In this document: one piece after another, positions 7,994 to 51,990 of the stretch
Numbering within the stretch: the stretch's first letter is position 1
How the letters are laid out: each line of letters starts with the position of its first letter
Notes under the pieces: generated by a model
Told to the model about the DNA's origin: nothing
The model's database searches: none
The model's input: only the letters and a program-made list of their open reading frames with translations
NCBI RefSeq assembly: GCF_000189755.2
Contig: NZ_KI912183.1
Location: 2,048,257 to 2,112,256 of the forward strand
Direction of reading: 5' to 3'
Length of the DNA: 64,000 nucleotides
DNA from: Desulfotomaculum nigrificans DSM 574
GTDB taxonomy: Bacteria; Bacillota; Desulfotomaculia; Desulfotomaculales; Desulfotomaculaceae
Made by a program: the position numbers and the translations under genes

Positions 7994-8205
7994 GGTGAAA
8001 CCCTCCGTATCTCTTGGGTATTTCTTTGGGGTCTTGCTTTTCGCTGTTCGCTTTTCGACTTGCCGGCATTCCTTTGGGGTCTTGCTGTTGGCTTTTGGCT
8101 TTTAGCCTTTGGCCTTTGGACTTATTTGTATTCCTTTTGGGTCTTGTTTGTTGGGGCCGGGCTTTTGAGCCTTACTTCGCGAACCTCGAATTTCGAACTC
8201 CGAAA
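7994..8205 (+). repeat. Intergenic repeat between the transketolase halves (one arm)
   Basis: On the plus strand this gap holds three copies of the block ATTTCTTTGGGGTC or ATTCCTTTTGGGTC (near 8017, 8069 and 8130). Between them are strings of 7-bp units such as GCTTTTG, GCTGTTG and TTCGCTG. It ends in TTCGAA-rich sequence. It belongs to the repeat family seen also at 36.6, 37.6, 44.1-44.8, 49.4-50.1 and 53.7 kb. Unlike most of those it has only the forward arm. Confidence 0.8.
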
Positions 8206-36596: not shown

Positions 36597-36868
36597 CTTG
36601 TGGGCAGTTCTTTGGGGCTCTTGGCTAATACTGCATTTCTCTTTGGTCAGCTGTTGGCTTTTGGCTGTTGGCTATTGGCTTTGCTGGGGTATTTCTTTAG
36701 GGTTAGCTCATAGCTGACGGCTGAAAGCTGGACCCCTGAGCATTACCCTTTAGGCTAACGGCCAACAGCTGACCCTTAAGGAATACCCTTGAGCCAACGG
36801 CCAACAGCTGACCCCTGAGGAATACCCTTGAGCCAACGGCCAACAGCTGGACCCCTGAGCATTACCCG
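36597..36868. repeat. Intergenic inverted repeat locus between comF and the holin gene
   Basis: The first half (to about 36715) reads in the forward sense on the plus strand (CAGCTGTTGGCTTTTGGC, GTATTTCTTTAGGG). The second half is its opposite (GGCCAACAGCTGACCC, GGAATACCC). The second half contains a 39-bp direct repeat starting at 36754, 36793 and 36832, each with heptamers GCCAACG, GCCAACA and GCTGACC. Part of the repeat family. Confidence 0.85.
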
Positions 36869-37552: not shown

Positions 37553-37731
37553 CTCCTTATTGGCTAATGCTGTATTTCTTTGGGGTCCTGCTTTTGGCTG
37601 TTTGCTGTTGGCTTTTGGCTTTTGGCCTTTTTAGGCATTCCTTTGGGGTCGCTAATGGCCAACAGCTGACCCCTGAGGAATACCCTTGAGCCAACGGCTA
37701 ACAGCCAATAGCTGACCCCTAAGCCTGGCCT
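37553..37731. repeat. Intergenic inverted repeat locus before the XhlA-like gene
   Basis: A forward arm (ATTTCTTTGGGGTCCTGC and GCTGTTGGCTTTTGGC, to about 37650) is followed directly by an opposite arm (GGCCAACAGCTGACCCC, GAGGAATACCC, AACGGCTAACAGCCAATAGC). Compact member of the repeat family. Confidence 0.85.
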
Positions 37732-40764: not shown

Positions 40765-41955
40765 TTATAGCCCCGCTTCGGCCCGTAGGATGGCGGCCTT
40801 ATCGGTGCGCTCCCAGGGCAGGTCTAAATCCGGGCGGCCGAAGTGACCGTAAGCAGCGGTTTGTTTGTAAATGGGCCGGCGCAGATCCAGGGCTTTGATA
40901 ATGCCGGCGGGGCGCAGGTCAAAGTGGCGGTTAATCAGGTCAATGATCACGTCGTCACTGACTTTTCCGGTGCCAAAGGTTTGCACCCGGACAGAAACCG
41001 GGCGGGCCACACCGATGGCGTAGGCCACTTGCACTTCACAGCGGCTGGCCAGTCCGGCGGCTACCACGTTTTTAGCCACATAGCGGGCGGCATAGCTGGC
41101 GGAACGATCCACCTTGGTGGGATCTTTGCCGGAAAAGGCACCGCCGCCGTGACGGGCCCGACCGCCATATGTATCAACAATGATTTTACGGCCGGTTAAA
41201 CCGGTGTCTCCGTGGGGACCGCCGATTACAAAACGACCGGTGGGGTTAATCAGGAACCGGGTCTTGTTGTCAACCAATTCGGCAGGCAGTACATAAAGGG
41301 CCACCTTTTCAATCATATCCTGGCGGATGACGGCCGATTCAACTTCCGGGTGATGTTGGGTAGAGATGACCACAGTATCAATGCGAACCGGTTTGTCACC
41401 TTCATATTCCACGGTCACCTGGGTCTTACCATCGGGACGCAGGTAGTCCACCAGACCGGTTTTGCGAACTTCTGCCAGCCGGCGGGCCATTTTATGGGCC
41501 AGGGAAATGGGCAGGGGCATGAGCTCCGGAGTTTCATCACAGGCATAACCAAACATCATGCCCTGGTCGCCGGCACCAATGGCTTCAATTTCATCATCGG
41601 ACATTTCACCGGTTCTGGCCTCCAGGGCCTTGTCCACACCCATGGCAATGTCCGGAGACTGCTCATCAATGGCGGTCAGCACAGCACAGGTGTCACCGTC
41701 AAAACCAAATTTAGCCCTGGTATAACCAATCTCCAAAACGGTCTCCCGCACCACCTTGGGAATATCAACATAACACTGGCAGGAAATCTCGCCGCCCACC
41801 ATGACCAAACCGGTGGTGACGAAGGTCTCACAGGCTACCCGGGCTAAGGGATCCTTGGCCAAAATGGCATCTAATATAGCATCAGAAATTTGATCCGCCA
41901 CTTTATCGGGATGTCCCTCGGTGACAGACTCAGAAGTAAACAGCTTTCTGCTCAA
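40765..41955 (-). CDS. metK: S-adenosylmethionine synthetase
   Basis: 396 residues, full length. Makes SAM from methionine and ATP. Signature motifs [12 protein letters not shown] and [17 protein letters not shown] are exact, as is the N-terminal [19 protein letters not shown]. It is controlled by a SAM-I riboswitch in its leader, and an AAGGAGG site precedes the start. Confidence 0.97.
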
Positions 41956-42027: not shown

Positions 42028-42055
42028 CACTTTTTCCCAGCTATACCTCAATAAC

Positions 42056-42149
42056 CTCATCTGTCAGGAAGGGACTTCCTGCAGGACTTGGCACCTTACG
42101 TGAGGTTGCCGGGTTTCATCGGGCCAGTCCCTCCACCTCTCTTGATGAG
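42056..42149 (-). promoter_or_regulatory. SAM-I (S-box) riboswitch aptamer
   Basis: On the minus strand it runs from CTCATCAAGAGAGGTGGAGG through GGCCCGATGAAACCCGGCAACC and GGTGCCAA to CAGATGAG. These are the conserved S-box core elements (kink-turn, SAM pocket and P1 closing stem). A hairpin terminator lies downstream. Confidence 0.95.
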
Positions 42150-42212
42150 AACAACAGCAAAATTGCCAGATTTATTTTAGCAAAGCAGGTAATAATGTGT
42201 CAAATAAAATCT

Positions 42213-44104: not shown

Positions 44105-44375
44105 AGACCTCCTGCTTTTGTGTATTCCTCTGGGGTCGGCTGTTCGCTGTTCGCTATTCGCTGTTCGCTATTTTTGTATTTCTCTTGGGTCGGCTTTTGG
44201 CTTTTGGCTGTTGGCTTTTGGCTGTTGGCTTTTGGCTGTTGGGCATTCCTCTGGGGAGCCTTGTCTTATCTGTATTTCTTTGGGGTCTCGTTGTTGGACT
44301 TATGGGTATTTCTCTTTGGTCCTGTTGTTGGCTTTCTTTGCATTCCTCTTGAGTCTTGCTTTTGGCTCTTGGTAC
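44105..44375. repeat. Repeat arm (forward) upstream of murJ
   Basis: The plus strand has GTATTCCTCTGGGGTC, GTATTTCTCTTGGGTC, ATTTCTTTGGGGTC and similar blocks. They are separated by heptamers GCTGTTC, GCTATTC, GCTTTTG and GCTGTTG in long runs (44145-44240). It ends just before the murJ ribosome site. It pairs in sense with the opposite arm at 44510-44818. Confidence 0.85.
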
Positions 44376-44446
44376 ATAGTTGTTTTACAACAAAGGTAGT
44401 ATATTCGACTAATTTGGCTAATATCCTGCACCCCGCGAGGGGGAAT

Positions 44447-44480
44447 AAAAAGAAAGGCTTCCATCGGGCGGAAACCTTTC
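44447..44480 (-). terminator. Terminator after the S8 protease, between the repeat arms
   Basis: GAAAGG and CCTTTC with inner TTTCC/GGAAG pairs form a stem around GCCCGAT, followed by TTTTTATT on the minus strand. murJ transcription should restart between here and its leader. Confidence 0.75.
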
Positions 44481-44509
44481 CCCTATAATAACTAACTTTC
44501 CTAAGAGGC

Positions 44510-44818
44510 AACAAGGACCCTGGAGAAATCCCCCGGTCTAACAGGACCCAAAAGGAATACCCCCAAGTCTAAAAGCCAACAGCCAACAGCTGACCCCATA
44601 GTACTGCCCCAAAGTAAAGAGCGAACAGCGAAGGGCGAATAGCGAAAAGCCCTCCCCAAAGAAATGCCCTCAAGGCTAAAAGCTAACAGCCAACAGCTGA
44701 CCCCATAGTACTGCCCCAAAGTAAAGAGCGAACAGCGAAGGGCGAACAGCGAAAAGCCCTCCCCAAAGAAATGCCTCAGGCTAAAAGCCAACAGCCTCCC
44801 CAAAGAAATGCCCCAAAT
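44510..44818. repeat. Repeat arm (opposite) after the S8 protease, with a 107-bp tandem repeat
   Basis: Contains two tandem 107-bp copies starting at 44570 and 44677 and a partial third at 44784. Each has the same order of parts: AAAAGCCAACAGCC, GCTGACCCCATAGTACTGCC, GAGCGAACAGCGAAGGGCGA and CCCCAAAGAAATGCC. The copies differ at only a few positions, so the duplication is recent. It touches the stop codon of the S8 protease gene. Confidence 0.9.
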
Positions 44819-47957: not shown

Positions 47958-49418
47958 TCAGAGCTGCAACATTTGCTTAACCTCCCGCTGCAATTGAGCC
48001 TTTTGTTCCAAGCTGTTGGCCTCCACATAAACCCTGAATAACGGTTCGGTGCCGGAAGGCCGGATTAAAATCCAGGCCCCGTCGGCCAGTACCAATTTGG
48101 TGCCGTCCAGGGTAATCTTGCCGGTTACCTGCTGCCCGGCCAGTTCCGGGGGCGCCCAGCCCTTCAACTGCTCCAGTATTTGCGCCTTTTGCTCCGGTGT
48201 CGTATGAAGATCCAGTCTCTCGCTGAAAAGGCGACCAAACTCACGGTAAATTTGCTCCAGAATTTCTGTCAGGCTCTTGCCGTGATGGGCCACCATTTCG
48301 GCAGCCAGCAGGCCGGCCAGGATACCGTCCTTTTCCGGAATATGACCCTTGACAGACAAACCGCCGCTTTCCTCACCGCCCAGGATACATCCCTTTTCCA
48401 AAAGATTTTGGCCGATATACTTAAAGCCCACCGGGGTTTCATAGACCGGCTGCCCGTATTTTGCCGCCATGCGGTCCAACAGATGGGTGGTGGCCACCGT
48501 ACGGGCCACCGGCCCCCGCCATCCCCTGGCGGTTAACAGGTGGTAATAAAGCAAAGGCAGGAACTGGTTGGGAGTAATGTACTCCCCGTTAGCATCAATA
48601 ATACCAAAGCGGTCGGCATCGCCGTCCAGGGCCAGGCCCAGGTTAGCCCCACCGGCTTTGACCCGGCCCTTTAATTCCTCCAGGGACTTACCGGTTGGCT
48701 CCGGCAGGCTGCCGCCAAAGAACGGGTCCCGGTAGTTGTGGAACACTTCCACCTGCACCCCGGCGTTACCCAGAATATGTTCCAAATAACCAATACCGGC
48801 CCCGTACATGGGGTCAATGACCACCTTTAGCCCGGCCCGTTTGATGGCAGCCAGATCCACAATCCCGGAGATATGACGGACATATCCGTCAAAGGGACTA
48901 TACCCGGTACAACGGGCCCCCTCCTTAAGCTCCGGCTGTGGCAACCGGCCATAGCGCCCCTGGGCTGGCTCTAACCCGTAGACATCACAGGGTTCCCCGG
49001 CCTGCAGCCGGGCGATGTTTTCCTCAATTTGCTTGGTGATATGGGGTAAAGCCGGACCGGCATACTCGGGAATAAATTTAAACCCGTTATAAACCGGCGG
49101 GTTATGGCTGGCGGTCAGCATCACCGCCCCGGCAGCGTTAGTTAACTTAATGGCATAAGCTGTCACCGGCGTAGGGGTAGCCCCGCGGCAGAGAAACACC
49201 GGAATCCCCTGACTGTTTAGCTCCTCAGCCACCGCAGCGGTGAATTCTTCGGCCAAAAACCGGTTGTCGTGGCCCACCACCAGGCCCCGCTCGGCCAGCC
49301 CCTGGCTGTTAATATAAGCGGCCACCGCCCGGGCCACCAGCCTTACATTATCAAAGGTAAAATCATCAGCAATAATCCCGCGCCATCCATCGGTACCAAA
49401 GGAAATTTTATGGGTCAA
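47958..49418 (-). CDS. Phosphoglucomutase / phosphomannomutase family protein
   Basis: 486 residues from the TTG at 49418 (Met-Thr-His-Lys-Ile-Ser-Phe-Gly-Thr-Asp) with AAGGAGG seven bases before it. The open frame continues 38 codons upstream, but that part is translated repeat sequence and should not be used. The phosphoserine loop is TASHNPPVYNG, the metal loop is DGDADRFGI, and the C-terminal phosphate loop is RPSGTEPLFRVY. It converts hexose-6-phosphate to hexose-1-phosphate, the substrate of GalU encoded nearby. Confidence 0.92.
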   Translation of the reverse strand: MTHKISFGTDGWRGIIADDFTFDNVRLVARAVAAYINSQGLAERGLVVGHDNRFLAEEFTAAVAEELNSQGIPVFLCRGATPTPVTAYAIKLTNAAGAVMLTASHNPPVYNGFKFIPEYAGPALPHITKQIEENIARLQAGEPCDVYGLEPAQGRYGRLPQPELKEGARCTGYSPFDGYVRHISGIVDLAAIKRAGLKVVIDPMYGAGIGYLEHILGNAGVQVEVFHNYRDPFFGGSLPEPTGKSLEELKGRVKAGGANLGLALDGDADRFGIIDANGEYITPNQFLPLLYYHLLTARGWRGPVARTVATTHLLDRMAAKYGQPVYETPVGFKYIGQNLLEKGCILGGEESGGLSVKGHIPEKDGILAGLLAAEMVAHHGKSLTEILEQIYREFGRLFSERLDLHTTPEQKAQILEQLKGWAPPELAGQQVTGKITLDGTKLVLADGAWILIRPSGTEPLFRVYVEANSLEQKAQLQREVKQMLQL

Positions 49419-49424
49419 AATAAG

Positions 49425-49635
49425 TCCTCCTTGTCTTATGGGTGTTTCTTTGGGGTCCAGCTGTTCGCTTTTCGCCTTTTGCTTGGGGGTATTTCTTTGG
49501 GGTCGGCTGTCAGCTCCTTGTCTTATCGGCATTTCTTTAGGGTCTTGTTGTTAGACTTATAGGTATTTCTTTTGGGTCCTGTTGTTCGCTTTTTGCATTC
49601 CTTTTGGGTCTGGCTGTTCGCTGTTCGTCGTACAA
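49425..49635. repeat. Repeat arm (forward) upstream of the phosphohexomutase
   Basis: Five copies of the ATTTCTTTGGGGTC-like block on the plus strand (near 49443, 49490, 49529, 49563 and 49597), with heptamers GCTGTTC, GCTTTTC and GTTGTTC between them. It begins just upstream of the mutase ribosome site. Opposite arm at 49918. Confidence 0.85.
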
Positions 49636-49761
49636 GGTTTATTTTATGATCGGTTTATTTCAATTATGCACATTATTCCAATAATGGCAAGGTTTATAAA
49701 GTCGAATTACGGGGAACACTATTATTAGTTAGCAAACAAATAGTAAGGGAGTTTGATCTGT

Positions 49762-49884
49762 ATGGCGAAGGCTATTGATATAAAGGCGCTGGATGCCAGG
49801 AGAAAGATGCTGGACAAATATCTGGTCTCCTGTAAAGCAACCAATAAAGCAACCAAAGCAGCTAAAAAAACAAGCCAGAAATAA
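49762..49884 (+). CDS. Lysine-rich 40-residue protein
   Basis: ATG at 49762 after AAGGGAG; 40 codons beginning MAKAIDIKALDARRKMLDKY and ending in a Lys/Ala/Thr repeat-like tail, then TAA. A clean terminator follows two bases later. Strand is opposite to the neighbours. The predicted protein is very basic (about a dozen Lys) and helical, with no membrane helix. I do not recognise a family. It sits in the loop between two opposite repeat arms. Confidence 0.6.
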   Translation: MAKAIDIKALDARRKMLDKYLVSCKATNKATKAAKKTSQK

Positions 49885-49919
49885 AACCAGGGTCGGGGTT
49901 TTTCCCTACCCTGGTTTTT
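49885..49919 (+). terminator. Terminator of the 40-codon gene
   Basis: AACCAGGGT and ACCCTGGTT form the stem, with a loop containing GGGG and CCC, followed by TTTTT on the plus strand. Confidence 0.85.
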
Positions 49920-50119
49920 AGCGAAAGGCTAAAAGCGAAAAGCGAACAGCTGGACCCCAAAACATTACCCATAAGTCTAACAACAAGACCCCAAGAAATA
50001 CCCCCAAGCAAAAGGCGAATAGCGAAAGGCGAAGAGCGAATGGCGAATAGCGAAAAGCCGTTCTCTAAAGAAATACCCAAGAAGCTAATGGCCAACAGCC
50101 AATAGCCAACAGCCGCCCC
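49918..50119. repeat. Repeat arm (opposite) after the epimerase gene
   Basis: On the plus strand: GCGAAAGGCTAAAAGCGA, then GGACCCCAAAACATTACCC, heptamers GCGAATA, GCGAAAG, GCGAAGA and GCGAATG, CTAAAGAAATACCC, and AATGGCCAACAGCCAATAGC. It ends at the epimerase stop codon. Confidence 0.85.
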
Positions 50120-51040
50120 CTAAGCATTACCCCTAAGATAATGCTCCACCGTCTCCTTTAGCCCCCGGGCCAGTTCATATTGTGGCTGCCAGTTCAACCG
50201 GGCTACGGCCTTACTGTTGTCCAAATAGCTGTGCACAATATCCCCCGGCCGGGGTGGGGCGTATTCCGGTTCTAAGGCAGATCCAATTGTCTGTTTTAGT
50301 AAACTGTACAGCTCATTGACCGTGGAGGCCTTGCCGGTGCTGATATTCAGTATCTGGTTGTCTCCTGCGGACAGAGCCGCCACGTTGGCCGCAGCCACAT
50401 CTTTTACATACACAAAATCCCGGGTTTGTTCCCCGTCGCCAAAAATTTGCGGTCTTTGGTTATGCAGTAGTTTATCAATAAAAACAGCCACCACACCGCC
50501 TTCCCCCTGGGCATCCTGGCGGGGGCCGTAGACATTGGCATAGCGCAGGGCGGTCCAGCTCAGTCCGTACAGCTCCTGGTATGCCTCCAGGTAGCGCTCC
50601 ACCGTATGTTTGGAAATACCGTAGCCTGACAGGGGCCGCAGGTCATGATCCTCGTCCACCGGCAAATAATTGGGGTTACCGTATACCGCCGCCGAAGAGG
50701 CAAACACCATCTTGCCCACCTTGACCCGCCGGGCTGCTTCCAGCAAATTTAACGTACCAATGATATTGACCCTGGCGTCAAAAATGGGATCCCGCAGGGA
50801 CACCGGCACAGCCACCTGAGCCGCCTGGTGAATGACAGCCTGGGGGCGAGCTGCTTCAAATATCCCGGCTATTCCGGGATCGGTGATATCCATCTGATAA
50901 AAGGGAACTTCCGGAGGCAGGTTTTCCTTTTTGCCGCTGGACAGGTTATCCACCACCAAAACTTCATGACCTGCCTTAAGCAAGGCGTCCACAATATGGG
51001 AACCAATGAAACCGGCCCCCCCGGTAACTAATACTCGCAC
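50120..51040 (-). CDS. galE: NAD-dependent sugar epimerase (UDP-glucose 4-epimerase type)
   Basis: 306 residues of the extended short-chain dehydrogenase family. The Rossmann motif is GGAGFIGSHIVDAL, and the active-site Tyr-x3-Lys is in YGISKHTVERY with Ser in FASSAAVYG. Its closest known activity is conversion of UDP-glucose to UDP-galactose. It lies next to galU, which makes UDP-glucose, so it supplies sugars for surface polysaccharide. The shorter length than E. coli GalE (338) is normal for this group; substrate could also be an N-acetylated sugar. Confidence 0.85.
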   Translation of the reverse strand: MRVLVTGGAGFIGSHIVDALLKAGHEVLVVDNLSSGKKENLPPEVPFYQMDITDPGIAGIFEAARPQAVIHQAAQVAVPVSLRDPIFDARVNIIGTLNLLEAARRVKVGKMVFASSAAVYGNPNYLPVDEDHDLRPLSGYGISKHTVERYLEAYQELYGLSWTALRYANVYGPRQDAQGEGGVVAVFIDKLLHNQRPQIFGDGEQTRDFVYVKDVAAANVAALSAGDNQILNISTGKASTVNELYSLLKQTIGSALEPEYAPPRPGDIVHSYLDNSKAVARLNWQPQYELARGLKETVEHYLRGNA

Positions 51041-51078: not shown

Positions 51079-51945
51079 TCAGTCAGCCAATAACTCTTTT
51101 AAATATTTCCTAAAATCCTCCGCCAAATCCGGCCTTTGCAGGGCAAATTCCACCGTGGCCTGGAGGTACCCTAACTTATCCCCCACGTCATAGCGTCTAC
51201 CCTCAAAAATACAGCCATAAATGGCCTCCGCCTGCACCAGCTTGCGCAAGGCGTCGGTTAATTGAATTTCCCCGCCGGCGCCGGGCCTGGTCATGGCTAA
51301 TATATCAAAAATCCTGGGGCTTAAAATATACCGGCCCATAACTGCCAGTCTGGACGGAGCCTGGCCGATCTCCGGCTTCTCCACCAAATCGTAAACCCGG
51401 CAGACCCCCTCCCGCTCCGGAGCAGCCTCCACAATGCCGTAACGATTGACGTGCTCCTGCGGCACCTCCTGAACACCCACCACCGAGTAGCGTACTTCCT
51501 CATATAAATTAATCAGCTGCTTTAAGCAGGGCACTTTACTGTGAATTACGTCATCCCCCAGCAAAACCGCAAAGGGCTCATCGCCAATGAACTTCCGGGC
51601 ACAATATACCGCATGTCCCAGGCCCAGGGGCTCCTTCTGGCGGATGTAGTGAATATCTACCATCTCGCTGATATCCCGCACCAGGCCCAGCAATTCATGC
51701 TTTTGCTTATGGTCCAGTTGAATCTCCAACTCCAGGGACTTGTCAAAATGATCCTCGATGGCCCGCTTATTGCGGCCGGTAACAATTAAAATATCTTCAA
51801 TGCCGGAGGCAACGGCTTCTTCCACTATGTATTGAATGGTGGGCTTATCTACAATGGGCAGCATTTCCTTGGGCTGGGCCTTGGTGGCAGGTAAAAAACG
51901 GACCCCCAGGCCGGCAGCCGGTATAATGGCTTTGCGGACTCTCAT
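51079..51945 (-). CDS. galU: UTP-glucose-1-phosphate uridylyltransferase
   Basis: 288 residues from the ATG at 51945, preceded by AAAGAGGTG; an upstream in-frame start is less likely. The nucleotide loop is PAAGLGVRFLPATKAQPKEM, with LPIVDKPTIQYIVEEAV following. It makes UDP-glucose from glucose-1-phosphate, the product of the mutase encoded nearby. It precedes the epimerase by 38 bases. Confidence 0.95.
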   Translation of the reverse strand: MRVRKAIIPAAGLGVRFLPATKAQPKEMLPIVDKPTIQYIVEEAVASGIEDILIVTGRNKRAIEDHFDKSLELEIQLDHKQKHELLGLVRDISEMVDIHYIRQKEPLGLGHAVYCARKFIGDEPFAVLLGDDVIHSKVPCLKQLINLYEEVRYSVVGVQEVPQEHVNRYGIVEAAPEREGVCRVYDLVEKPEIGQAPSRLAVMGRYILSPRIFDILAMTRPGAGGEIQLTDALRKLVQAEAIYGCIFEGRRYDVGDKLGYLQATVEFALQRPDLAEDFRKYLKELLAD

Positions 51946-51990
51946 ACAAGCACCTCTTTCCTGGATCATTTTATTTAAGGAAAAGCGGCC

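Follow-up and report, generated by a model that had tools for sequence, protein, structure and literature searches.

The locus analyzed here lies within a 64,000-nt stretch of the Desulfotomaculum nigrificans DSM 574 genome (the window) and holds a 40-codon ORF on the plus strand (49762–49884; ATG at 49762, stop codon at 49882–49884), which is preceded by a ribosome binding site, AAGGGAG (49745–49751), and encodes the lysine-rich product MAKAIDIKALDARRKMLDKYLVSCKATNKATKAAKKTSQK, with a pI of ~10. The surrounding genes lie on the minus strand: the divergent neighbor pgm, a phosphoglucomutase/phosphomannomutase gene (47958–49532), the convergent neighbor, encoding a galE-like NAD-dependent epimerase (50120–51040), and, next to the latter, a galU-like nucleotidyltransferase gene (51079–51969). 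Elsewhere in the window, a SAM riboswitch (RF00162, 89.8 bits) is found at 42054–42151 on the minus strand, upstream of a metK-like gene (40765–41955).

The original prediction described a lone lysine-rich gene with a ribosome site, start and stop codons, reading against its neighbors and encoding a very basic protein of no known family, and the comparative data agree with it on each of these points. Whole-genome searches found a single homologue per genome in 9/9 Desulforamulus genomes; the start codon, the reading frame and the opposite-strand position are kept in all of them, and an AGGAG-like site stands at the same place in the alignment of the congeners. Judging from this conservation across the genus, the ORF is more than a chance occurrence. 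Among the nine congeneric copies, changes at the first, second and third codon positions numbered 310, 168 and 459, respectively, and dN was lower than dS in all pairs for which both could be computed. The 40-codon ORF is a genuine gene.

Using a profile made from the first 14 family members, we found a homologue in 57 of the 113 genomes of the class and, outside it, in 4 further genomes of a phylum sample of 398, while a scan of named genomes matched only Desulforamulus aeronauticus, D. putei and one uncultured Desulfotomaculum, the first two being the named relatives with a family member. The gene occupies a conserved slot in sulfate-reducing spore formers and related genomes. Among 43 loci outside the window's genome, the most constant syntenic marker, galU, is found downstream of the small gene and on the other strand in 40; pgm is found upstream, again on the other strand, in 33, and neither was seen in any other orientation to the small gene. 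A GT4 glycosyltransferase gene is also part of this constant neighborhood, together with pgm, galE and galU. Since synteny was not used in finding the members, it provides independent evidence of orthology, even for those that score weakly. In the galU slot of 12 class genomes without a match, one doubtful remnant and otherwise nothing clear was found. This remnant, in genome G033 (locus L225), is a short, weakly family-like ORF (LLLQLNQKKLMLIAYLQQINPEYLQ) located upstream of a DUF421 gene and divergent from it, possibly a decayed or very diverged family member, to judge from its sequence.

Family members are 33–59 aa long with a pI of 9.5–12 (44 loci), thus small and basic as minor SASPs are. 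They share a conserved N-terminal block, M.K....K.L..R.KMFE.YL...K, in which Y20 is invariant and L10, R13 and L21 are nearly so, followed by a variable basic tail. AlphaFold2, given four sequences as input, predicted with moderate confidence a single helix spanning residues 7–37 (mean pLDDT 75), a model that bears on the fold and not on binding partners. No Pfam or NCBIfam family describes the protein. When 39 members were compared with the Pfam and NCBIfam SASP models, none matched at E 0.1, so that the family is not assigned to the minor SASPs by sequence; PF00269 (alpha/beta SASP) likewise gave no match to family members, and neither DUF421 nor, at E 0.1, DUF1657 was matched in the Pfam scan. 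The weak Pfam and NCBIfam matches that did appear were dismissed, as most were spread across unrelated families (DUF2852, the most frequent, concerned 7 of the 39 members, with a best E of 0.0035), and matches to PDB entries were at chance level. We found no spore study on this small gene in the literature.

The gene is followed by a strong hairpin (49883–49918), with arms at 49883–49897 and 49904–49918 and then a run of T's, which has a folding energy of −27.9 kcal/mol vs −14.5 for shuffled sequences (z −4.65). The opposite strand folds almost equally well, and galE ends beyond the hairpin while running in the opposite direction, suggesting a bidirectional intrinsic terminator that probably serves both the convergent galE operon and the small gene. 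The clean terminator originally assigned to the small gene is present, but probably does not serve it alone.

Two clusters of dispersed repeat units flank the gene, one on the left (49427–49627) and an inverted one on the right (49919–50113), and the original prediction placed the gene inside the resulting loop. The position between opposite arms is true of the window, but the loop is no feature of the gene, given that no unit occurs within 1 kb of it in eight congeners. The unit GGGTATTTCTTTNGGGTC is present in 125 copies in the window's genome (at most 2 mismatches) vs 0 for a reversed control, and in 5 to 59 copies, fewer, in the congeners. Because the units are dispersed and are absent near the gene in congeners, the most plausible reading of the two arms is that each was added independently, in this lineage, to its own intergenic gap. 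The gene was not found to travel with the flanking repeat or to depend on it, and the striking loop is incidental, with no special tie to the gene. The repeat family itself, in which modules like GGGTATTTCTTTGGGGTC combine with runs of AGCGAAWAGCGAA and inverted clusters are frequent, is strongly expanded in the window's genome relative to the congeners; in the window it also occurs at 44120–44813, 36687–36827, 37570–37685 and 8016–8081. Translated repeat can pose as coding sequence: 49419–49532 (minus strand) forms an N-terminal extension of pgm, the true start of which is probably near 49418, with the first ~38 codons of the ORF being translated repeat, and the ORFs at 44120–44488 (plus strand) and 44501–44803 (minus strand) are likely mis-annotated as genes.

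Upstream of the small gene, we found a promoter of the sigma-F/sigma-G forespore type, GTTTAT-N14-GGGAACACTAT, with its −35 element at 49692–49697 and its −10 element at 49712–49722 on the plus strand. It was scored with a two-box model that was seeded with a published-type forespore consensus and whose training set consisted only of sequences upstream of SASP, SpoIIR and GPR genes in related genomes, with the small-gene family left out; SASP genes are present in all 41 relatives scanned, and spoIIR and gpr in nearly all. The small-gene promoter has the signature of this model, namely a GYATA/GTTTA-like −35 element, a spacing of 13–14 nt and a −10 element of the form GG..A.A.TA/CATA.TA. Family upstream regions scored 11.9 on average vs 1.2 for 144 control regions upstream of neighboring housekeeping genes, and 21 of 43 reached at least 12 compared with 2 of the 144 controls (Mann–Whitney p = 5e-17, an optimistic value since the sequences are related and not independent). 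The forward promoter alone passes p = 0.05 in 22/43 family upstream regions, about half of them failing. For the window site the score is 12.7 (shuffle p = 0.01), and as 8 sites scoring at least 12.5 occur on both strands of the 64 kb, this lone site is not remarkable; the case for the promoter therefore rests on conservation. In the genus, the form GTTTAT-N14-GG...-ACTA is kept at a nearly constant distance from the start codon, within a strongly conserved intergenic block. Outside the class, promoters were judged by eye. The −10 box opens with GG, a feature that, by comparison with C. difficile (PMC3789822), points more to sigma-F.

The remainder of this conserved intergenic block corresponds to a second forespore-type promoter, placed back to back with the first and facing pgm on the minus strand (49669–49639; −35 element GCATAA at 49664–49669, −10 element TCATAAAATAA at 49639–49649), which is kept in the whole genus and is significant in 35/43 loci. 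An assignment of this extra block as a sigma-A promoter of pgm was rejected, the forespore model fitting better. The pgm gene itself is possibly under forespore control. This sugar-phosphate mutase gene occupies the place where other genera have a DUF421/YetF gene: in 21 of their loci, such a gene starts divergently from the small gene, 118–194 nt away. Homologues of yetF in B. subtilis belong to the sigma-F or sigma-G forespore genes, and their products are predicted or shown to reside in the inner membrane of the spore and to influence its germination and its resistance to wet heat (PMC10126465). In C. difficile, the DUF421 gene CD1789 depends on sigma-G (PMC3789822).

We infer, with good support from the promoter data, that the small gene is switched on in the forespore, where RNA polymerase carrying sigma-F and/or sigma-G would transcribe it during sporulation. 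The product would fold into a helix, one face of which is conserved (L10, R13, Y20, L21), and end in a variable lysine-rich tail; by analogy with minor SASPs, it would most likely accumulate in the spore core. In such a model the tail would bind acidic partners, either the inner membrane or nucleic acid, and the helix face would self-associate or dock onto one particular protein; a conserved face together with a basic tail suits binding of an acidic surface plus one specific partner, and the charge makes nucleic-acid binding possible. A small, basic, forespore-made protein of the spore core, resembling minor SASPs and having nothing to do with the repeats, is our first choice and, based on the sequence evidence, probably the right one.

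Three other readings fit the data poorly. That the gene is part of a repeat element, or that its product acts on the repeats, as the original prediction had suggested, is hardly credible in spite of the inverted clusters around the gene and the basic protein, for the ~125 unit matches are accompanied by only one copy of the gene in the genome and the units are missing around it in congeners. Scarcely more probable is that a terminator-bearing small RNA of the forespore is the conserved entity and the short ORF a by-product of it: the promoter and the strong hairpin do predict a short transcript, but conservation extends to the amino-acid pattern, the start codon and the ribosome site, changes are most frequent at third codon positions with dN below dS, and the downstream hairpin sequences differ between congeners. 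That the small protein is vegetative and co-expressed with pgm, galE and galU, the genes for cell-wall polysaccharide, is improbable as well; the constant neighborhood speaks for it, whereas the small gene never shares a strand with those genes and has its own forespore-type promoter.

The main rival is that the protein serves as the dedicated partner or regulator of the divergent DUF421/YetF-type inner-membrane protein and not as a general spore-core protein. The 21 divergent loci with their paired forespore-type promoters argue for it, as do the 2Duf proteins, in which one chain carries both a DUF421 domain and a small helical domain, DUF1657 (PMC10126465). A clade-specific helical protein would then bind and tune the YetF-type protein, and the divergent promoter pair would define a two-part spore-resistance or germination module in much of the class. 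However, the small gene is kept without DUF421 at this place throughout the window's genus and in several further genera, four genomes (G012, G022, G035 and G025) show the reverse, with DUF421 near galU but no clear family member, and no member matched the DUF1657 model at E 0.1; we regard both the partnership and such a module as unlikely.

Annotation misses small proteins, and little is known about those of the spore core in the Desulfotomaculum group, the described SASPs being mostly restricted to Bacilli (PMC3533761). A single-copy family with a conserved slot and a forespore-type promoter, often paired with a YetF-type gene, offers a concrete target for the study of spore resistance in sulfate-reducing spore formers. 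Among known systems, the protein is alike to the Bacillus minor SASPs (SspH, SspI, Tlp and others) in size, basicity, forespore-type promoter and lineage-restricted distribution, minor SASPs also being restricted in distribution (PMC3533761); it differs from them in fitting no SASP model of Pfam or NCBIfam. With the alpha/beta-type SASPs (PF00269) it shares the build of the forespore promoter and presence in the same genomes, but differs in sequence, a GPR-like motif occurring in only 1 of 44 members, probably by chance. The likeness to YetF/2Duf (DUF421) and DUF1657 proteins lies in the forespore-type promoter and the divergent arrangement, although by Pfam scan the protein is neither DUF421 nor DUF1657. 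It is best read as a new clade-specific family within a known kind, the small forespore proteins, and not as a new kind of system.
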